A DNA stretch of 64,000 bases from Nitrosarchaeum sp. (GTDB lineage: Archaea; Thermoproteota; Nitrososphaeria; Nitrososphaerales; Nitrosopumilaceae), in the NCBI GenBank assembly GCA_023265135.1, contig JAHFUM010000007.1, positions 1 through 64,000 of the forward strand. The letters are read 5' to 3'. Below are positions 22,379 to 62,613 of this stretch, in pieces. The notes below the pieces were generated by a model, which worked only from the letters and a program-made list of their open reading frames with translations, did not search any database and had not been told where the DNA came from. The position numbers and the translations under genes are program-made. Within the stretch, counting starts at the first letter, position 1. Each line of letters starts with the position of its first letter.

Positions 22379-22523
22379 GGAATTTAATTCCGCAAACTCT
22401 TTTTTTATTTTCTAAACTCTTTTGTGCCTATAATTTTTTTCATATAATGTGTTTAATAACGACAAGCTCACATTTTATTAAAAAATATCAACTTTTATCT
22501 TGTTTGAAATTTGTAATAAATAA

Positions 22524-52759: not shown

Positions 52760-52795
52760 TTATTGTAATTTGGCAAAAATGTATTTTTTAATCAT
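52760..52795 (-). CDS. Possible 11-codon ORF behind a strong leaderless promoter
   Basis: An ATG lies exactly 26.5 nt from the centre of the CTTAAG core of a TAAATCCTTAAG promoter and opens only 11 codons (MIKKYIFAKLQ). The promoter is better supported than the peptide; the transcript could instead be a small RNA. The rest of 52579-52859 has no gene. Confidence 0.3.
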   Translation of the reverse strand: MIKKYIFAKLQ

Positions 52796-52818: not shown

Positions 52819-52830
52819 CTTAAGGATTTA
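52819..52830 (-). promoter_or_regulatory. TAAATCCTTAAG promoter word, copy 1
   Basis: The sense-strand sequence TAAATCCTTAAG is identical in four places in this window. Here it lies 26.5 nt before an ATG on the minus strand. Confidence 0.5.
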
Positions 52831-52859
52831 TGAATAAAGTTTAGAAAATAAAAGAGAGA

Positions 52860-53609
52860 TTATGAACAGCCTGGATAGGCTCCAACAGGATTTCCGATGC
52901 ATCCTGCAAAGATTGCATTACTAAGGTCTGCACCACTTAGGTTTGCACCACTTAGGTCTGCACCAGATAGGTTTGCGTAATTAAGATATGCTGCAACAAG
53001 GTTTGCATCATTGAGGTGTGCTGCAACAAGGTTTGCACTGTCAAGATGTGCATCACCTAAGTTTGCATTATGGAAGTTTACCGTACCTAAGTTTGCATTA
53101 TGGAAGTTTGCACCGTAGAGAATTGCATCAGTAAAGTCTACATCATAAAGGATTGCACCAGTGAAGTCGACATTATGAAAATCTGCCCCACTTAGATCAC
53201 ATCCATGTAAATCAATGTTAGGCTTAGGAATTGCAGAACATCTATCTGCATCGGTTGTTGTTGGATTTTGTGTTGGTTGCGTATTTTGAGATTGTACTTC
53301 AGTGTTTTGGGCTGGTTGAGTATTTTTAGATTGTAATTTGACAATATCATTTTTTAATTTAGTGTTTTCGGATTGCAGTTTTGTGTTTTCATTTTGAAGT
53401 TCTTTAATTTTTGGAACTGTAATTATATTATTGTCAATTAGAAAAGATAACCCATCGCCAAACTCATCATCTGTAATTTTTCCCTCTGACCAAAATCCTG
53501 CAACTCCTTTTACCCATGCAGGAATGTCATACTTGCTTTGAGCTGAAATTGAAGCGACAGATACGCTAAGAACAACAACTAAAACAGATATTATTAGAAC
53601 CTTATTCAA
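52860..53609 (-). CDS. Exported pentapeptide-repeat protein
   Basis: After a signal peptide (TTG start; hydrophobic residues 4-22) comes a domain IPAWVKGVAGFWSEGKITDD that I recall from many thaumarchaeal exported proteins. Then a short coiled coil (repeated ENTKLQS) and a Gln/Asn/Thr linker lead to about 16 pentapeptides of the ADLSGANLSGA type (residues about 130-240), which fold as a right-handed beta helix. The protein is probably a structural or binding protein outside the cell. A Cys pair at the end may form a disulfide. Confidence 0.82.
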   Translation of the reverse strand: MNKVLIISVLVVVLSVSVASISAQSKYDIPAWVKGVAGFWSEGKITDDEFGDGLSFLIDNNIITVPKIKELQNENTKLQSENTKLKNDIVKLQSKNTQPAQNTEVQSQNTQPTQNPTTTDADRCSAIPKPNIDLHGCDLSGADFHNVDFTGAILYDVDFTDAILYGANFHNANLGTVNFHNANLGDAHLDSANLVAAHLNDANLVAAYLNYANLSGADLSGANLSGADLSNAIFAGCIGNPVGAYPGCS

Positions 53610-53632
53610 TAATTATGTAATTTTTGGGTAGA

Positions 53633-53644
53633 CTTAAGGATTTA
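53633..53644 (-). promoter_or_regulatory. TAAATCCTTAAG promoter word, copy 2
   Basis: The centre of the CTTAAG core lies 26.5 nt before the TTG start of the pentapeptide-repeat gene. The word overlaps the stop codon of the TPR gene. Confidence 0.6.
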
Positions 53645-54094
53645 GGACCAGATTTTAGACTTATCTTGTGTCTTCAAGTCTAGAGCTTTTTCATAACATT
53701 TTTTTGCTTCTTCGTGTTTGTCTAACCTATCAAATGCGATGCCTTTGCCTGTCCAAGTGTCAAAATCATTGGGATTGATTTCTAATGCTTTATCAAAACA
53801 TTTGATTGCTTCTTCATGATTGTCTAGTTTACTTAATGCATTTCCTTTGGAAGACCAAGCATCAGCAAGAACTTCTAGATTGATTTCTAATGCTTTATCA
53901 AAACACCCTAAAGCCTCTTGATATTTTTCTAACCTAGACAATGCAGAACCTTTCATCACCCAAACTACGGGATCATCTGGATTAATGTCAATTGCTTTAT
54001 TAAAATACTGTAATCCTTTTTCATCTTTTGCGTATGTAAGATCTAACCCCTTTTGTAATAAATCCCATACTTTTTGCTTCTCAAACAATCCCAT
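53642..54094 (-). CDS. TPR-repeat protein
   Basis: The 150-residue protein contains three to four tetratricopeptide repeats (KYQEALGCFDKALEINLE, NHEEAIKCFDKALEINPND, KHEEAKKCYEKALDL). TPR superhelices bind partner proteins. The start is ATG at 54094, downstream of a TAAATCCTTAAG promoter. The pentapeptide-repeat gene follows 32 nt after the stop with the same promoter word, so the pair is probably co-regulated. Confidence 0.85.
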   Translation of the reverse strand: MGLFEKQKVWDLLQKGLDLTYAKDEKGLQYFNKAIDINPDDPVVWVMKGSALSRLEKYQEALGCFDKALEINLEVLADAWSSKGNALSKLDNHEEAIKCFDKALEINPNDFDTWTGKGIAFDRLDKHEEAKKCYEKALDLKTQDKSKIWS

Positions 54095-54115
54095 AAGTTC
54101 TAAGTTTTGTAATAA

Positions 54116-54127
54116 CTTAAGGATTTA
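54116..54127 (-). promoter_or_regulatory. TAAATCCTTAAG promoter word, copy 3
   Basis: The core centre is 24.5 nt before the ATG of the TPR gene. The remaining gene-free region to 54419 shows no ORF and no RNA gene. Confidence 0.6.
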
Positions 54128-54419
54128 GGAAGAACATTTTACACATTTACAAGTAATTATTCTATTATCTTCCACGTCCTACATTGAATGACTTTTGCTC
54201 GAATGTGTTCCATTTTTGTATTAACTTAGGGTTAAAATCAATGTATTTTGTGATTATATTTAGGATCTTTCTCAAACATACTAGTAAACCCACGACTTGG
54301 CGGTTCGAAATTCTTTGACATGACTATCTATGGTTTTTAATGCATTGATAAACTAAATAATATTATTTCTGCCAATGGCTTGAAATTATCTTTTCAAATT
54401 TCTAAATTGTAGAATTTGA

Positions 54420-55859
54420 CTATTTTACATGTGTACCTTCACGTATCTCTATCTTACCAGCCTCTCCATTTGCTTGCATGTTTGTATATGGATATATTTT
54501 GGAATTAAATTTATTTACTGTTCCCTCAAAAGTCTGTATCACTGTTGTTCTATCCAGGGCAGTTTGTAATTGCGGACCTCGTTTTAGATCTATGCGATAA
54601 TGCTCATCTACCATAATGACTGTTTTTTCAGTGTTTATTGGATGAAACAAAATAAACGAAAAATCTTTCGGAACATTTTCTCGTTCAAACATATCATACA
54701 ATATCCATGAATAAACCGGACTTGTAAGAACTGTAACACTGTCATCATAATTTTCTAAAACATATGATAATGCCTGAAATTGATTACTTGATATATTATT
54801 GATAATCAAAAGTGTTGTACTGACAAAGCTAAAAATTAAAATCACAGATACAATTGCTGTGAATGCGATATTTTTTTTGATTATGTTGTATTTATGAATT
54901 GATTCTAGTAATACACCTGCTGCAATACACATTACTGGTATTACCATCATCCAATGAAAATATTGCTTGTATCCAATAATACTTAGAAATACTACAAATG
55001 GAGCAAACCCCAACAAAAGAAATTTATCTTTCCGTAATGCTGCAATAACCATTCCTGATAATCCTAAGATAAACATCAATGGATCAATTACTGCAAAGAA
55101 TCCAAATATGTCTAATACGCTATTTGTCCTCTGTGTTTGCCACAACACACCTTTCTGCCAAAGATCAAACTGATCAAGTGTAATTGCATTGACAGGCCAT
55201 ATTAAAGGAATCAACAAAAATGGAATCAATAAAAGCAAAACATCTGAAAACTTTTTTCTATCCGAATATACAATCCATGCAACAACAAAGATCATTGTAA
55301 ATGCTGGTATCTTTGTAAATACTGCCAAACCCAATAAACACCCTGAAAAAATAATTAGCACAGATTTTTGTTTTGTTTTAGTAGAATAGATTGCAAGTAA
55401 AATTGCACCTAATACCAGAGGCATCAAAATTGAATCGAGCAATATTCTTTTGAAAATCCATGTAAATGGTAGTACTGCAAAGAGTGATGCAGATAGAAAT
55501 GGTGCAATTCCTCCGTATCTGAGTTGAACAATTTTATAAATTAGAAATGTATCTAAAACTGCTAACAATCCCATGAATATTCTTGGAATCATATACAATG
55601 ATTGTAATGATTCTGGATCTGTTGATGGTTTAATGTCTGAATAATTTGTTATTGCAAGAATTGAAGCAATTGCAATTTGACCAAAATATGGATGATCATA
55701 CACATTACCTTCTTGTGGATTTGCAGTATGCAATAGATTCACTGCCCGCCTCATGTAAATTCCCTCATCAAAAAATACGTCTGGATATCCTACTGGATTC
55801 CAGAGGTGAGTAAAACCTGATAGTAAAAGTGGAATCAACAAGAAAAATAATTTATTCAA
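54420..55859 (-). CDS. GT39-like membrane glycosyltransferase
   Basis: The 479-residue protein has about eleven membrane helices and the N-terminal acidic motif FFDEGIYMRRAVNLL in the first external loop, as in PMT/ArnT-type GT-C enzymes that use dolichol-linked sugars. YDHPYFGQIAIASI follows, the second conserved loop. The C-terminal 120 residues are soluble. It probably glycosylates surface proteins or lipids. The start is TTG at 55859. Confidence 0.84.
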   Translation of the reverse strand: MNKLFFLLIPLLLSGFTHLWNPVGYPDVFFDEGIYMRRAVNLLHTANPQEGNVYDHPYFGQIAIASILAITNYSDIKPSTDPESLQSLYMIPRIFMGLLAVLDTFLIYKIVQLRYGGIAPFLSASLFAVLPFTWIFKRILLDSILMPLVLGAILLAIYSTKTKQKSVLIIFSGCLLGLAVFTKIPAFTMIFVVAWIVYSDRKKFSDVLLLLIPFLLIPLIWPVNAITLDQFDLWQKGVLWQTQRTNSVLDIFGFFAVIDPLMFILGLSGMVIAALRKDKFLLLGFAPFVVFLSIIGYKQYFHWMMVIPVMCIAAGVLLESIHKYNIIKKNIAFTAIVSVILIFSFVSTTLLIINNISSNQFQALSYVLENYDDSVTVLTSPVYSWILYDMFERENVPKDFSFILFHPINTEKTVIMVDEHYRIDLKRGPQLQTALDRTTVIQTFEGTVNKFNSKIYPYTNMQANGEAGKIEIREGTHVK

Positions 55860-55971
55860 TTGCTATCTTATCTTAGTTGATAATCAGACTTTTAAATTAA
55901 TTAGACCATGATCCAATCTGGCAAAGTTATTACTATACTTCCTTACATCAATCAAAATTTTGTCATTGACA

Positions 55972-56220
55972 CTAACTACGCATTGACATTTCATTTCCTA
56001 CAGATGCCTGCAAACCGAGCCCTGCTCCTGGCTCTTTGGCTATTATCATCAAAGTTTCGCATGAAAGACATAAAACTGATGGAGTATAGTCTGTGTTTTC
56101 TTGAGTTGGTCCAGTTGAAGCTAATATTGCATCCTCTACGATGTTTTTACTATTACAATCAATACATGTTGATGGTTTGTCAGAAAGACGTTTTATTTTT
56201 TTGATATAGTAATGGACCAT
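55972..56220 (-). CDS. Small zinc-ribbon protein
   Basis: The 82-residue protein has CIDCNSKN near residue 19 and CLSCETLM near residue 51, a two-knuckle zinc ribbon, followed by a Gly/Ala-rich tail. The start is ATG. An opposite-strand frame covers nearly the same DNA, but it has no recognisable motif, so I take this one as real. Confidence 0.62.
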   Translation of the reverse strand: MVHYYIKKIKRLSDKPSTCIDCNSKNIVEDAILASTGPTQENTDYTPSVLCLSCETLMIIAKEPGAGLGLQASVGNEMSMRS

Positions 56221-56338
56221 GAATGTTCTACCTGTTAGTAATTCTTAAATTAATTGATTGGTCTTTAATGAGGCTACCTTACGATTAACTTTCATTGTTT
56301 TGCATACTCATAAAATACAGTTCAATTAATATGATTTA

Positions 56339-57334
56339 ATGTCAAATTCAAAAATCGCTCTAGCTGACGATTTGTCCATATGCAGAATCTTAAATGGAAT
56401 GTGGCAGATATCTGGTGGACACGGACAAATAAATCGTGAATCTGCCATTTTGGAGATGTTAGAATATCACAAATCTAGTTTTACTACGTGGGATTTGGCT
56501 GATATCTATGGTCCTGCTGAATCATATGTTGGAGAATTTAGAAAACGATTGTCATCTGAAGAATTATCAAAATCACAAGCACTGACTAAATTTGTACCAA
56601 ATCCCGGTCCTATGACAATGTCTATTGTAGAATATCACATTGATCAATCCCTTCACAAAATGAACACTGACTCACTTGATTTGGTCCAGTTTCATTGGTG
56701 GGATTACAATAATGCAAGCTATCTTGATGCCCTTACCAATTTATCGAAACTACAAGATTGTGGAAAAATCAAGCATATTGGGTTGACAAATTTTGATACC
56801 CCACGAGTCAAAATAATGGTGGAAAAAGGATTCAACTTAATATCAAACCAAATACAATACTCCATTTTAGATCAAAGACCGGAAAAGTTAATGGCTCCAT
56901 TCTGTCAAAAATATGGAATTCACCTTCTCACATATGGCACATTACTTGGTGGATTCTTATCTGAAAAATATCTAAACTCTGCAGAACCTCATAGAGCAGA
57001 CTTGACTAATTACAGTCTCCAAAAATATTATAACATAATTAATGCATGGGGCGGTTGGAAATTATTCCAAGAATTACTGCTCATCTTATCTCAAATAGCA
57101 AAAAAACATGACTCTAGTATAGCAAATATATCTACAAAATTTATTTTAGATAAACCTGCAGTTGCGGGGGTAATAATTGGTGCAAGACTTGGATTATCAG
57201 AACATAGAAAAGACAATGCCAGAGTCTTTGATTTGCAATTGGACTCTGAAGATCACTCCATGATAAATTCAGTTACTGGAAAATCAAATGATCTTTTTGC
57301 TACAATTGGGGATTGTGGAGACGAGTATAGATAG
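56339..57334 (+). CDS. Aldo/keto reductase family protein
   Basis: The 331-residue TIM barrel begins LADDLSICRILNGMWQISGG and has TTWDLADIYGPAESYVG with catalytic Asp and Tyr, then DLVQFHWW with the His. The Lys position reads QALTKFVPN. Substrate-binding GLTNFDTPRVK and NQIQYSILDQRP segments are typical of the bacterial and plant-like members of the family. The start is ATG. It shares little detail with the reductase at 20.2 kb. Confidence 0.86.
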   Translation: MSNSKIALADDLSICRILNGMWQISGGHGQINRESAILEMLEYHKSSFTTWDLADIYGPAESYVGEFRKRLSSEELSKSQALTKFVPNPGPMTMSIVEYHIDQSLHKMNTDSLDLVQFHWWDYNNASYLDALTNLSKLQDCGKIKHIGLTNFDTPRVKIMVEKGFNLISNQIQYSILDQRPEKLMAPFCQKYGIHLLTYGTLLGGFLSEKYLNSAEPHRADLTNYSLQKYYNIINAWGGWKLFQELLLILSQIAKKHDSSIANISTKFILDKPAVAGVIIGARLGLSEHRKDNARVFDLQLDSEDHSMINSVTGKSNDLFATIGDCGDEYR

Positions 57335-57791
57335 TATCTTCTAGAAACTCGTAACTTGTATAAAAATTCTATAACTCGGTAAGAACAATCGTTTTGAATC
57401 CTATGAATACATGTAAAATTCTGTACATTAGAATATACAATAATACAGTCAATATTTTTAAAAAATATGGTAAAAACTAGATAGTAATCAAAACCAATCA
57501 GTTATCCATTGACAACTGAGCATCAATTCCATTTTTACATTCCATTGATGTTTGGAATTATTTGATTACTACCTGATTTATTACCTTATAATGAAATAAA
57601 AGGACATCTTTGTAAATTCTTTACATTTGTTTATTTTTATAAAAAATTATTTACGAAATTAAATCATAGTTATAACATATTTTTTCATCATTAAATCACG
57701 TCTATAAAAAAATAAATTACGAATAAAAAGTGTTTGGAATATAAAATAATAGTGGTTACAAAAGAATTGTATGGGCTGGAAATATTTTAAT
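57335..57791. other. Gene-free AT-rich region
   Basis: This 457-bp stretch is very AT-rich and has only frames under 30 codons without motifs. I see no tRNA, hairpin terminator or repeat that I can support. Confidence 0.5.
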
Positions 57792-58142
57792 TTATTCGTT
57801 CCATATTGGTTGTTTTTTCAACCAGGATATCAAATCTCTGTAAAGATGGCTTTTTTGTACATTTAATACATTGATTTCCATATTAGTCGATAATTTTGCT
57901 GTCTTGGTATAGTTGTCATATTTTGCAAATATGACTTTGTCAAGATATGTCTGACCTTGAATTTCTTTTTTTGCTAATTCCTCAGATTCTGTCATGGCAA
58001 AACATGCAAAGAGAACTCCGCCAACCCAATACGCACTACCTGATTCAAGTGATGCCATCATGCTTAGCAGATCATCTAGACTCAGTTTAATCAAATCTCT
58101 CACATAGACGGTTTTGTATGGCTCGTGAATAAATTCGGTCAT
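57792..58142 (-). CDS. Conserved protein of unknown function
   Basis: The 116-residue protein is alpha/beta, with SLDDLLSMMASLESGSAYWV and KVIFAKYDNYTKTAKLST. No motif is recognised. The start is ATG at 58142. It follows the nuclease gene on the same strand with a 50-nt gap, so they could be one operon. Confidence 0.55.
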   Translation of the reverse strand: MTEFIHEPYKTVYVRDLIKLSLDDLLSMMASLESGSAYWVGGVLFACFAMTESEELAKKEIQGQTYLDKVIFAKYDNYTKTAKLSTNMEINVLNVQKSHLYRDLISWLKKQPIWNE

Positions 58143-58192
58143 AGTATATCCAATTATGAATTTTTTTGACTTTATTAATCCTAGTCTAAAAT

Positions 58193-58873
58193 CTAAAATT
58201 TATTGATTGCCGTCTCATTTTCATGGAATTTTTCTATCTTTTCAATTAATTTCTCTTTAAAATCAAATGCTATTTTGATAAATTCTGCTATATTCCCTGT
58301 TTCTTCAGAGCCAATAATTACAATTTGATCTATTTCCATCCCAGTTCTTTCCTTCCACATAAGAGAATACGCTGTTGCTTGCATGAAATATTTCTGAACT
58401 TTGTCATAATGTTCCATTAGTTTGTTCTTGCTAGTCTTAAAATCAATAATTGAGAAATCTCCATTATACTCTGCAATACAATCACAAGTTCCTGCTATTT
58501 CAAACTCATCACTATATAGTGGAATCTCGATTCCTCGTATGTTGTTAATTTTGTGCAGGTATGGCTTTAGATTTTTAAAATGATTGATTGGAATATCTAA
58601 AAAATCTCCGTTAGATTCTTTATTGTTAAGGTAATTTTCACATAATTTATGGGTCATCGTTCCATGGATTTGTGCTTCTTTGATTGTCTGCTCTGCAACT
58701 TCGATTCCTACTCTTTCTCTCCAGTCATCAAGACCCGACATATCTGATGTCTTTGATAATATCGTGGTAATTGACGGGTATAGTTTTCCTTCCGGGGTTT
58801 CATAGTATCTGACCCCATTTATTTCTGTTTGAAGTGCTAGTGGAATGGTTGTATTGTGGTGGACGAATTGCAA
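58193..58873 (-). CDS. PD-(D/E)XK-superfamily nuclease
   Basis: The 226-residue protein has the RecB/Cas4-like order: GTMTHKLCENYL near residue 70, a conserved EIAGTCDCIAEY near residue 124, FSIIDFKTSK with the catalytic Asp and Lys near residue 137, and QATAYSLMW near residue 165. The pattern resembles small viral and mitochondrial (MGME1-like) exonucleases and lacks the Cys cluster of Cas4. A role in DNA repair or trimming is likely. The start is TTG. Confidence 0.75.
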   Translation of the reverse strand: MQFVHHNTTIPLALQTEINGVRYYETPEGKLYPSITTILSKTSDMSGLDDWRERVGIEVAEQTIKEAQIHGTMTHKLCENYLNNKESNGDFLDIPINHFKNLKPYLHKINNIRGIEIPLYSDEFEIAGTCDCIAEYNGDFSIIDFKTSKNKLMEHYDKVQKYFMQATAYSLMWKERTGMEIDQIVIIGSEETGNIAEFIKIAFDFKEKLIEKIEKFHENETAINKF

Positions 58874-58952
58874 TTATTCATAATGTATCAAGGCAATAAA
58901 AAAATCAAGCGTTTAAGAAAACACTCGTTGCTTTTTATAGATTTTATGCTAA

Positions 58953-59633
58953 TTAATTTTCAAAGCTTTTTTCAATTTCTTGTGCAAATGATTCTAACTT
59001 AGTCATATCTCCTAGATTTCTGTAAGTCAATTTTTCTAGTGTCTTGATTATGCTAATCGCTGCTCTATATTGTGGAATATCTGGATGATTCAATTCTCCA
59101 TACATTCCCATTCCCTGAATGCCGTTTTGTTTTGCAAAACCTAAGATCAAGCCGTTAAACCCTGTAATTATTGATCTTTGTGGGGTTGTTAAAACTCCCA
59201 ACCCTTGCATTTGTTTTGTTAATTCTATTGATGTGGTTGTGACAAACGTTTTTGGATTTTTGTCCAGTACTCTGTTTGTATGAAATCCCCCAAGTGTGTA
59301 GATGAATTTAGCAGAGTATTTTTTAGAAACATCTATGACGTCTTGACAAAGTGAATATAGTTCTTGACTGTCTTGTGGTTGACCTGTTCCGCCACCAAAA
59401 ATAATTAGCCCCTCAGCATATTTGTACTCCCAACTTTCATTTGGCAAGTCAATATGACCTCCTACATCCACAACATATGTTGGATATGGGGTCTTTGCAA
59501 TTCTGAAATTTTTTGTTTTCAAACTATTGTTGATAAAATTCACCACGATACTCCCTACATTTCCCATGTCTTGCATTGCCGCAATGACTATCGGTTTTTC
59601 AATCACTGGTTCTTCAGTTTGAAAAAATTCCAT
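58953..59633 (-). CDS. PAC2-family protein
   Basis: This family is related to proteasome assembly chaperone 2. The pattern is clear: IVIAAMQDMGNVGSIVVNFI near residue 15, YAEGLIIFGGGTGQPQD, FIYTLGGFHTNRV and ITGFNGLILGFAKQNGIQGM. Length is 226 residues. Archaeal members occur beside proteasome or translation genes, but the neighbours here give no such link. The start is ATG. Confidence 0.85.
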   Translation of the reverse strand: MEFFQTEEPVIEKPIVIAAMQDMGNVGSIVVNFINNSLKTKNFRIAKTPYPTYVVDVGGHIDLPNESWEYKYAEGLIIFGGGTGQPQDSQELYSLCQDVIDVSKKYSAKFIYTLGGFHTNRVLDKNPKTFVTTTSIELTKQMQGLGVLTTPQRSIITGFNGLILGFAKQNGIQGMGMYGELNHPDIPQYRAAISIIKTLEKLTYRNLGDMTKLESFAQEIEKSFEN

Positions 59634-59702
59634 TATTTTCTCTAGATTTTACTTATTTAAAAACTACGGACGGTCTTTGTCGACAAAAAAACTTGAGCGA
59701 TT

Positions 59703-59882
59703 TTAGTCACGAGTTGAAGTGATGATGTTGTGTTGATACTTGCATACTTCACAGAACCATGTTGAATCTAAGATATTCTTACACTGGCCACAACGATATA
59801 CTATATTGTCTATATCTCCTACCTGTCTATGTATCTCATCTATTAGTTCCGATGTTATTGATATTTGATGATTTTCATTCAT
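59703..59882 (-). CDS. 59-residue zinc-ribbon mini-protein
   Basis: An ATG frame reads ISITSELIDEIHRQVGD, then CGQC near residue 31 and CEVC near residue 44, ending in a polar tail. The two CxxC knuckles are 9 residues apart. It stands between the PAC2 gene and another zinc-ribbon gene on the opposite strand. Function unknown. Confidence 0.62.
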   Translation of the reverse strand: MNENHQISITSELIDEIHRQVGDIDNIVYRCGQCKNILDSTWFCEVCKYQHNIITSTRD

Positions 59883-60021
59883 GCTCTTTCTTACTGTTCT
59901 ATCTCTTCTAGTTATCTTTTTTTACTTTCTTTGTTTAGGCGAATTAGTGTTTTATTCTTAGGAAAAAACCAGATCAAAGCATAGAATTTAGTTAAACTTT
60001 CTTCCTTAAGATTTGTATATA

Positions 60022-60249
60022 ATGAAAAAATTAAATGTTTTGTTAATGATTATCGGTAAGATAGAGAAAAATGAGAAAAAAATCAAATTTCATCTAGATA
60101 TCAATTGTACAAAATGTGGGAAAACAGTACCTGGAGGAATGCATGCATCTGAGAAATATTTTGGCTCAGACTTATTTAAAGCAGAAATCGATAATTTCAA
60201 GAAAAATTATCTCTGCGGCATATGCAGAGATAAGAAAAGAAGAAAATAA
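60022..60249 (+). CDS. Small zinc-ribbon protein
   Basis: The frame has CTKCGKTVPGGMHASE and a second CGICRDKK knuckle near the C-terminus, with a basic end. I chose the ATG at 60022 (75 residues); a TATA-like TGTATATAATG overlaps it, so an internal start is also possible. Function unknown; it is one of five small zinc-type genes in 2.6 kb. Confidence 0.6.
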   Translation: MKKLNVLLMIIGKIEKNEKKIKFHLDINCTKCGKTVPGGMHASEKYFGSDLFKAEIDNFKKNYLCGICRDKKRRK

Positions 60250-60319
60250 ACGACTTGTTTTAAATTAAATAATTTGAAATATCCCACCAAATAATTTCTA
60301 AATTATTCTGGTTTCTTGA

Positions 60320-60961
60320 TTACCATACAGGGTGAACTAATTCTTTAAGATTTCTTCTGGGCTTTGGAAATTTTTCTTGTTTAGGATATCCTATGCATAA
60401 TACTGATGACGGAATCAACTCGATATTTAATATCTTCATTATTTTTTGCTCATCAAACATTCCAATCCATATGGAACTTAATCCCAAAGCCTGAGCCGCA
60501 AGCTGAGAGTATGCAGCAGCTAGTGTCGCATCTTGTATAGCAAATTTTTTCAACACCTCTTCAGGGAAATCAAATTTTACTCTTGCAGGATTTTTACAAA
60601 AAACTAGTACAACGGGTGCATTTACGTATGGTTGATTGTTACATGCCTCTACTAATTGCTGTTTTTTTTCAGGACTCTTGACATAAAATATCTCAAAGCC
60701 CTGAAAGTTTCCTGCAGTAGGTGCAGTATCTGCGGCTGCTATGATTTTGTCTATTTTTACTGTCTCTACTATTCTATCTGTAAATTTTCTAGTTGAACGT
60801 CTTTTTGACATTACTGTAAATAAATCAGTGTTGATAAATTCGGTTGGAGATGATTTCAGTATCTCGCTGAGCAATAGATTTCTAACATTACCTTCAGTAT
60901 GGGTCTCTTTTGGCTCATATCCTGATGGATATATTTTTTCAGGATTGTCTTTAGAGTCCAT
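60320..60961 (-). CDS. Nitroreductase-family FMN oxidoreductase
   Basis: Nitroreductase-fold enzymes bind FMN and reduce nitro compounds, quinones or flavins. The FMN-binding SKRRSTRKFTDR is near residue 52, then TAPTAGNFQGFEIFYV near 80 and AALGL-type QALGLSSIWIGMFD near residue 157. A polar N-terminal extension of about 45 residues precedes the fold. Length is 213 residues, ATG start. Substrate unknown. Confidence 0.86.
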   Translation of the reverse strand: MDSKDNPEKIYPSGYEPKETHTEGNVRNLLLSEILKSSPTEFINTDLFTVMSKRRSTRKFTDRIVETVKIDKIIAAADTAPTAGNFQGFEIFYVKSPEKKQQLVEACNNQPYVNAPVVLVFCKNPARVKFDFPEEVLKKFAIQDATLAAAYSQLAAQALGLSSIWIGMFDEQKIMKILNIELIPSSVLCIGYPKQEKFPKPRRNLKELVHPVW

Positions 60962-61043
60962 GATAAGTGATAAAAAAATATCTTATTAAATAATTCTTAA
61001 TGTGTTTGTTTTGATGCTATCTCTATGTTTTGATTAAATGTTT

Positions 61044-61223
61044 TTATTTTTTATTGATATTTGGTATGTAAGCAGATTCTATTGATACGCATTGAGGATG
61101 ATATTGTTTTTCAGTAATATTTCCACATGCATGACAACTAAAAGTAATTGGTAAATTGCAAGTGCTACATTTCTTCTCTGCTTCTAATTCTTTTCCACAT
61201 CTTCTGCATGAATCAAATCTCAT
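61044..61223 (-). CDS. Small double zinc-ribbon protein
   Basis: The 59-residue protein has three CxxC pairs (CRRC, CSTC, CHAC) and a final HPQC, enough for two zinc sites. I chose the ATG at 61223 because a TATA-like GTTTAAAT lies 27 nt upstream; the ATG at 61247 lacks this. Function unknown. Confidence 0.65.
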   Translation of the reverse strand: MRFDSCRRCGKELEAEKKCSTCNLPITFSCHACGNITEKQYHPQCVSIESAYIPNINKK

Positions 61224-61614
61224 ATTGAGTGTTATTCTACATTTCATTTAAACCCTGTGAAAATTAGGCTACATTAATTAGCTTGTTCTAATTTTTGATA
61301 TGAGTTGGTCTTGTTCTATAGAATGAGAATAAATCGGCAAACTCAATTTTAGCCTCTGATTTGCTTGTTTGTTTTACACCCACACTTTGAATTACACTGG
61401 TTAAAATTTTTAATTTTATATTGTTTCTACCTCAAATACTATCTGATTGTTTCTAAGATAATCTATGATCATATTATTCATATCCGTTAATTACAAAATT
61501 TGTTTAAAACAATGTTAGAATTATTAGTGAAAAAATGCGTTGTTTCAAATTATATTATGGCATTAGAAAATTTTTTACCGATATTTTATATAAAAAAACT
61601 GAGTAAATTGTACT

Positions 61615-61710
61615 ATGACACAAATATCAATTTAACAGGCAAAAAGAAGATCACTATTATTCATTGGAATTGTTATAGCAATGGTAATAGTGATCTTTGC
61701 TCTTGTCTAA
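61615..61710 (+). pseudogene. Small single-helix membrane ORF interrupted by a stop
   Basis: A TATA box (TTTATATAAA, centre about 61589) lies 25 nt before an ATG, but the frame stops at codon 7 (TAA) and then continues QAKRRSLLFIGIVIAMVIVI to a second stop at codon 32. Replacing TAA by CAA would give a 31-residue membrane peptide. This may be a nonsense mutation or a sequencing error. The rest of 61248-61614 has no intact gene. Confidence 0.35.
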
Positions 61711-61764
61711 ATGTACTATGTATTCACATAGGGATGAATTTTTTATGCTTGATTTGAATATTTT

Positions 61765-61908
61765 TTATTTATACACTTGATGTAAAGTGGAACCACAACT
61801 ATTGCATTTTTTACTTTCAATATAATTTTGGATAGTTTGACCCTCCCAGATCAAAGCATTTGCTTTGTGACCCTTATCACATTTAATTTTAAATAACATG
61901 CTTGTCAT
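61765..61908 (-). CDS. 47-residue zinc-ribbon mini-protein
   Basis: An ATG frame reads MLFKIKCDKGHKANALIWEG near the start and CNSCGSTLHQVYK at the end, giving a CxxxH...CxxC zinc site. A second ATG at 61899 would shorten it by three residues. It was found by reading the gap and is below usual length cut-offs. Confidence 0.6.
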   Translation of the reverse strand: MTSMLFKIKCDKGHKANALIWEGQTIQNYIESKKCNSCGSTLHQVYK

Positions 61909-61969
61909 AATTGGTCTTTCTAATTTTTTTCTGAACTTAAATATGTTGTTTTAAAACTAATAGAGCAAT

Positions 61970-62320
61970 TTATTGGCTTGAAATTGCATTACCTGCATCG
62001 CTTGATTCGTCTTGCTTTTTGAATACCCTGTATTCTCCAATGACTGAATTGCATTGTTGGCATGTGTATTGCCCTCTTTCTACAAGAATCAAATTATCTG
62101 CAACTTGTTCATTTGTATTTTCTTCCAGATGTATCTTTGGCGGGTTGTTGAATTCTACTTCACATGTTTTACAGTAATGCTTTGACATTTTTTGTTCTTC
62201 AAGTTTGCCTACTGGTGCTAAAAATAGTTTTCCAACTCCTAAATCAGCTTTTTTTGCTTGGTCTTCAGTCAAATCAGCTATAACATATCCACCTGAGCCC
62301 TGCAACTTGAATTCTGCCAT
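61970..62320 (-). CDS. Conserved zinc-ribbon protein
   Basis: The 116-residue protein starts MAEFKLQGSGGYVIADLTED, then has CKTCEVEF near residue 50 and CQQCNSVIGEYRVF near residue 87. I chose ATG 62320, about 27 nt after a TATA-like TATTTTAAGG. The N-terminal half (GVGKLFLAPVGKLEEQKMSK) looks like a small beta domain. I believe it is a conserved thaumarchaeal family, but the function is not known. Confidence 0.7.
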   Translation of the reverse strand: MAEFKLQGSGGYVIADLTEDQAKKADLGVGKLFLAPVGKLEEQKMSKHYCKTCEVEFNNPPKIHLEENTNEQVADNLILVERGQYTCQQCNSVIGEYRVFKKQDESSDAGNAISSQ

Positions 62321-62371
62321 TTGCATTTCTATTTATTCTGACCTTAAAATACCATGTCTTTGAAAATTGGC

Positions 62372-62578
62372 TTATTGTTTTGTTTTTGATTTTCTTATTT
62401 GATAGAGTAATGAAAAACCTAATCCTGCGATAAATAAACCAAAGCCAAACATGCTCAGAAAAACCATATTTGCAATGCCACCTGGTGGATTTAACAGTAT
62501 TGTAAACCCAATAAACGTCGAGACAATTCCTAAAATAATCAACAAAATACTAGGACATTTGAGTTCGATTATTTTCAA
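62372..62578 (-). CDS. Small membrane protein with two helices
   Basis: The 68-residue protein has two hydrophobic helices (about residues 10-28 and 38-58) and a basic C-terminus. The start is TTG, with the TAAATCCTTAAG promoter word 26.5 nt upstream. It shares this promoter with the TPR and pentapeptide-repeat genes at 53-54 kb. Confidence 0.6.
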   Translation of the reverse strand: MKIIELKCPSILLIILGIVSTFIGFTILLNPPGGIANMVFLSMFGFGLFIAGLGFSLLYQIRKSKTKQ

Positions 62579-62601
62579 TGTTTTTCTAAATTTTGTATTT
62601 A

Positions 62602-62613
62602 CTTAAGGATTTA
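62602..62613 (-). promoter_or_regulatory. TAAATCCTTAAG promoter word, copy 4
   Basis: The core centre is 26.5 nt before the TTG start of the small membrane protein gene. Confidence 0.6.

Follow-up and report, generated by a model that had tools for sequence, protein, structure and literature searches.

The window, the whole stretch of 64,000 nt of a Nitrosarchaeum genome that was analysed here, contains four exact copies of the 12-nt word TAAATCCTTAAG, at positions 52819–52830, 53633–53644, 54116–54127 and 62602–62613. All four are on the minus strand, as the initial annotation of this DNA had claimed, and none of 100 dinucleotide shuffles reached four copies (mean, 0.03). No copies with one mismatch were found in the 64,000-nt window. 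The copy at 54116–54127, in which TAAAT is a putative BRE and CTTAAG a putative TATA element, stands before ATG 54094 of a gene for a 150-aa TPR protein (53642–54094, minus strand; Pfam TPR_1, 5.7e-36). The copy at 53633–53644 overlaps the stop codon of this TPR gene and precedes the TTG at 53609 of a gene for a 249-aa pentapeptide-repeat protein with an N-terminal hydrophobic segment (52860–53609, minus strand; Pfam Pentapeptide, 1.6e-30), such that each of the two genes has its own word. A near-identical N-terminus is encoded by a second pentapeptide gene, located behind a one-mismatch word at L068:15815. The copy at 62602–62613 precedes the TTG at 62578 of a gene for a two-helix membrane protein of 68 aa (62372–62578, minus strand), whose sole Pfam match, TMEM_230_134, is sub-threshold (5.4e-4); TTG is thus the start codon at two of the four sites. 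Lastly, the copy at 52819–52830 precedes the ATG at 52795 of an 11-codon frame (52760–52795, minus strand) that was read from the sequence, is doubtful as a gene, and may represent a leader or a non-coding transcript.

Counted from the centre of CTTAAG, the start codon begins after 26.5, 26.5, 24.5 and 26.5 nt at these four sites, in order of position, which agrees with the 24.5–26.5 nt given in the initial annotation. This spacing also fits its description of the four sites as leaderless starts, a property deduced from position, except that the 11-codon frame may not be a gene at all.

We scanned the source genome (1.82 Mb, 25 contigs) with the reversed word as a control, and found 22 exact copies of TAAATCCTTAAG as compared to two of the reversed word. 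Among one-mismatch copies the word (21) was outnumbered by its reversed form (49), and the excess is thus confined to the exact word, with some of the one-mismatch copies sitting in true promoters. At 14 of the 22 copies, a frame of 25 aa or more opened at a distance of 27–33 nt, rather than the copies being scattered at random positions, which was the outcome that the initial annotation had set against its own proposal.

The comparison was extended to 61 genomes of relatives, 18 of Nitrosarchaeum and 43 others. The Nitrosarchaeum genomes contained 113 exact words (40 reversed), with the word present in 17 of the 18, and the 14-mer TAAATCCTTAAGTT, which is the word followed by TT, occurred 86 times in the genus and its reversed form not once. 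The 43 relatives outside the genus showed no excess (16 words vs 21 reversed). In a scan of 84,980 species, which may leave out the window's own genome, TAAATCCTTAAGTNNNTANAAAA matched 43 stretches: 31 thaumarchaeal (19 titled Nitrosarchaeum and 12 from other bins), one from Nitrosotenuis and 11 from unrelated bacteria. Of the 12 other thaumarchaeal bins, 11 match Nitrosarchaeum genomes, and casp-thauma3 was not placed.

To describe the spacing across the genus we read 109 of the 113 sites, the remaining four having not been fetched or lying too near a contig end. Counting from the C of CTTAAG, start codons of frames with 25 aa or more were located at 28 nt in 14 sites, at 29 nt in 36 and at 30 nt in 10, which amounts to 60 of the 109 sites, whereas the background is about 1.7 per offset. 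When frame length was disregarded, 82 of the 109 sites had a start codon at 27–31 nt (17–37 in shifted controls), leaving 27 genus sites, including six of the 22 in the source genome, with no start codon in this interval. The aligned sites gave the extended consensus TTCC-TAAATCCTTAAG-TTnnTAnAAAA, often with TTTAGAA; this downstream element was present at 40 of 109 sites as compared to 10.9 after shuffling. The words in L117, L124, L126, L129 and L144, some of which are alike between species, were not followed at the typical spacing by a frame of 25 aa or more and could precede short peptides or small RNAs. A non-coding RNA at such sites was looked for in 13 sources (the window and 12 other loci), with no Rfam match.

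Conservation of the word was evaluated in orthologs of two word genes, which were picked through their proteins, irrespective of the word (12 and 15 loci, of which 10 and 15, together 25, were from the genus, and two from outside it). The ungapped mismatches to the word were 0, 0, 2, 2, 1, 0, 3, 3, 0 and 1 at the 10 genus loci of the first gene, and 0, 0, 1, 2, 1, 0, 1, 0, 0, 1, 5, 1, 2, 2 and 0 at the 15 of the second, so that two of the 25 had three mismatches and one had no recognisable word. The two orthologs outside the genus had no word, with four and five mismatches as compared to four and six for the reversed word. Agreement with the commonest base among the 25 genus promoters was 0.91 over the word plus TT but 0.46 in the furthest-upstream 16 nt, in families that were selected for having members with the exact word, which favours conservation somewhat. 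The word was thus kept while its flanks diverged, with TAAAT--TTAAGTT nearly invariant and more variation at the two C's.

Alternatively, the word might be an operator that overlaps the TATA box and is bound by a sequence-specific repressor or activator. The strong over-representation of the exact 12-mer, and not of its single mismatches, would suit this explanation, as would a second element, TCTAAACTC, upstream of some words (29 of 106 within one mismatch vs 0.6 in shuffled sequence). However, the word is not palindromic beyond CTTAAG, unlike the usual operator of a homodimer, and the orthologs vary bases inside the word while its TATA-like shape stays. Moreover, TCTAAACTC had no word or near-word behind it in 12 of its 18 copies in 445 kb, as judged by eye. 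We consider an operator improbable. TCTAAACTC was also rejected as a part of the promoter, as it stands elsewhere too, at times near gene ends, and we treated it as a separate, terminator-like element. A TTCTAAACTCTTTTTGTGCC-like element was seen at 22411 (plus strand) in the window and in L060, L063:8565, L065, L069:16874 and L077, in some cases just after the end of a long frame, and looks like a terminator or 3'-end signal of this genome.

We compared the word with the general promoters of the genome. In 445 kb, partly picked around matches, CTTAAG at −29 was the strongest single hexamer, whereas in 224 kb that, the included window aside, were not picked around matches, degenerate forms such as TTAAAT, ATAAAT and TTATAA led. 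Samples of 200 kb from a second Nitrosarchaeum genome (G014) and from a genome of genus g12 (G105) showed general TATA-like forms only, with CTTAAG at −28 to −30 found zero times and once, respectively. As G014 also contains one word only, the class is small in some species. The general TATA hexamers were likewise enriched at 28–30 nt, and this shared −29 position raises the possibility that the word is an ordinary core promoter, namely the best-affinity form of the general one, served by the housekeeping TFB and TBP and used by genes that are not regulated together. The tolerance of variants in ortholog promoters is in keeping with this, and one TFB, C11a, is 96–100% identical in 16 of the 18 genus genomes (best match outside the genus, 84%), as would suit a housekeeping factor. 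We nevertheless judge this explanation to be rather unlikely, although less so than an operator, because the 1.8 Mb contain only 22 exact copies, which mostly precede accessory genes; because the largest contig seen (623 kb) holds only one of the 22 (p = 0.0012); and because the CTTAAG-type set is sharply apart from the degenerate TATA forms. Together, the genome and genus counts, the fixed spacing, the contrast with general promoters and the ortholog footprints support the proposal of the initial annotation that the word goes beyond a generic TATA box and is a special BRE/TATA pair.

The genes behind the word are diverse. The 73 proteins with a start at 27–33 nt fell into 44 unrelated families, and 40 of the 73 had a membrane or signal segment by a hydropathy rule. 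When families were counted once (proteins of at least 60 aa), 16 of 32 had a membrane segment, as compared to 133 of 521 background genes (p = 0.006), which is a moderate bias towards membrane and secreted proteins. When ten genes of the source genome behind a word or near-word were compared with Pfam, few matches passed their cut-offs, namely LEA_2, Mrr_cat, TSP_3, SNase and Peptidase_M10. In three species (L088, L089 and L090) the word precedes a 35-aa membrane gene, and a TFB gene of the same orientation follows about 330 nt further downstream; in G000, G016 and G009 the word genes point instead at the 3' end of TFB C11a.

Word sites were also clustered, with eight pairs within 1.3 kb as compared to 0.33 expected. 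This tandem arrangement would be expected if the copies had been spread by duplicated genes or by a mobile element carrying the promoter, and the near-word before the pentapeptide paralogue, as well as the likeness of the flanks at 52819 and in L011, point the same way. Nonetheless, the 44 families are unrelated, flanks differ beyond the promoter, and the extended word pattern had no matches in viral contigs, making spread by duplication very unlikely. That the word marks a regulon, as the initial annotation had suggested, is supported only indirectly, by the 44 unrelated families on one promoter, the membrane and secreted bias and the tandem clustering; these genes may be regulated together.

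The word resembles the archaeal BRE/TATA promoter, which depends on TFB and TBP, in having an AAA-containing element that adjoins the upstream side of an AT-rich box, and in a spacing that would suit leaderless genes. Such a box is centred about 26 nt upstream of the transcription start, and the distance of CTTAAG to the start codon fits this value. The TAAAT that provides the AAA is conserved in ortholog promoters. The archaeal BRE consensus is RNWAAW; the base before TAAAT is mostly C, where RNWAAW has a purine. The word differs from this general model in having CTTAAG at the TATA position and in being genus-restricted, and it differs from other promoters of the genome in being far less degenerate. 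We regard the word promoter as one of ordinary mechanism (BRE/TATA) but unusual sharpness and gene set. The explanation that we favour, at a probability of about 0.78, is that TAAATCCTTAAG is a BRE/TATA core promoter of a distinct class in Nitrosarchaeum that stands before many accessory genes unrelated to one another. According to this model, TAAAT would be the putative TFB-recognition element and CTTAAG would take the TATA position; transcription would start at or beside the start codon, making most word genes leaderless; and the class would serve accessory genes, among whose products small membrane and secreted proteins are over-represented.

Related systems have been described in other archaea. 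For Halobacterium NRC-1, two reports describe expanded TFB and TBP sets, gene sub-sets that depend on a TFB–TBP pair such as TbpD/TfbA, and BRE bases proposed to sort TFBs (PMC2121645, PMC3542263). The Nitrosarchaeum TFB/TBP set is similarly expanded, but the Halobacterium classes were defined by knockouts and ChIP and differ slightly in their BREs, whereas the word is near-fixed and its class was defined from sequence. A report on Nitrososphaera viennensis, likewise an ammonia-oxidizing archaeon, describes a copper-limitation motif that several genes share in their upstream regions, that is conserved among related species and that is found largely before genes of unknown function (PMC7785015). 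That motif differs from ours in sequence and begins between −35 and −70, in either orientation, suggesting an upstream regulator site and not a core promoter. Literature searches found no paper on a promoter such as ours in ammonia-oxidizing archaea and no transcriptome paper on Nitrosarchaeum limnia, and the exact word gave one unrelated Streptococcus paper.

We then considered which factor might read the word. The source genome has about nine TFB and three TBP genes (from 18 and six repeat matches). In L202:612-2115 (G000:C2) a TFB gene is followed 22 nt on by a TBP gene, a pair that is conserved in Nitrosarchaeum and also adjacent in seven genomes of genus g12, and is thus not limited to word-bearing genomes. 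This operon was rejected as the sole reader, as g12 has the operon while its genome G028 has no words, and G008 has five words without a close paired TBP. The word was likewise rejected as a TFB autoregulatory site, as the starts of 11 TFB genes were inspected and the exact word was present at none of them. TFB C11a belongs to a clade of genus rows only in a tree of 57 TFBs (57 of 62 rows, with five left out), and the two genus genomes that have no close C11a match are 78% and 61% complete.

In both of these genus TFBs, C11a and the one paired with a TBP gene, a Ser precedes VTEVTIRNR in all 27 genus rows and in none of 33 outside rows, the 33 best matches outside the genus having Asn (29) or Gly (4) in this column. 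No other of the 304 columns has a residue that is invariant in the rows from the genus and missing from those outside it, and this column aligns beside the conserved VTEVTVRNR helix of Pyrococcus TFB in structure 1d3u, a helix which we take to contact the BRE. We tentatively propose one or both of these TFBs, in which the BRE-recognition helix begins with a Ser specific to the genus, as the likeliest candidate for the reader of the word, although the odds are against it. The rows are closely related and the Ser may reflect a single event in one clade, making this correlate of the word a lead and not proof; in the TFB tree the two Ser-bearing TFBs may, but need not, form one clade.

Ammonia-oxidizing archaea have 4–11 TFBs and 2–5 TBPs (PMC7554672). 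A genus-restricted word together with a genus-specific TFB residue would offer a direct and cheap test of TFB paralogues as promoter selectors. We speculate, with still less confidence than for the reader itself, that in the ancestor of Nitrosarchaeum a TFB residue change (probably Asn to Ser) where the BRE-recognition helix begins and a new BRE/TATA word together gave rise to a sigma-factor-like class for envelope and accessory genes. If this were true, the ancestral TFB change would represent the traceable birth of a general-transcription-factor regulon.
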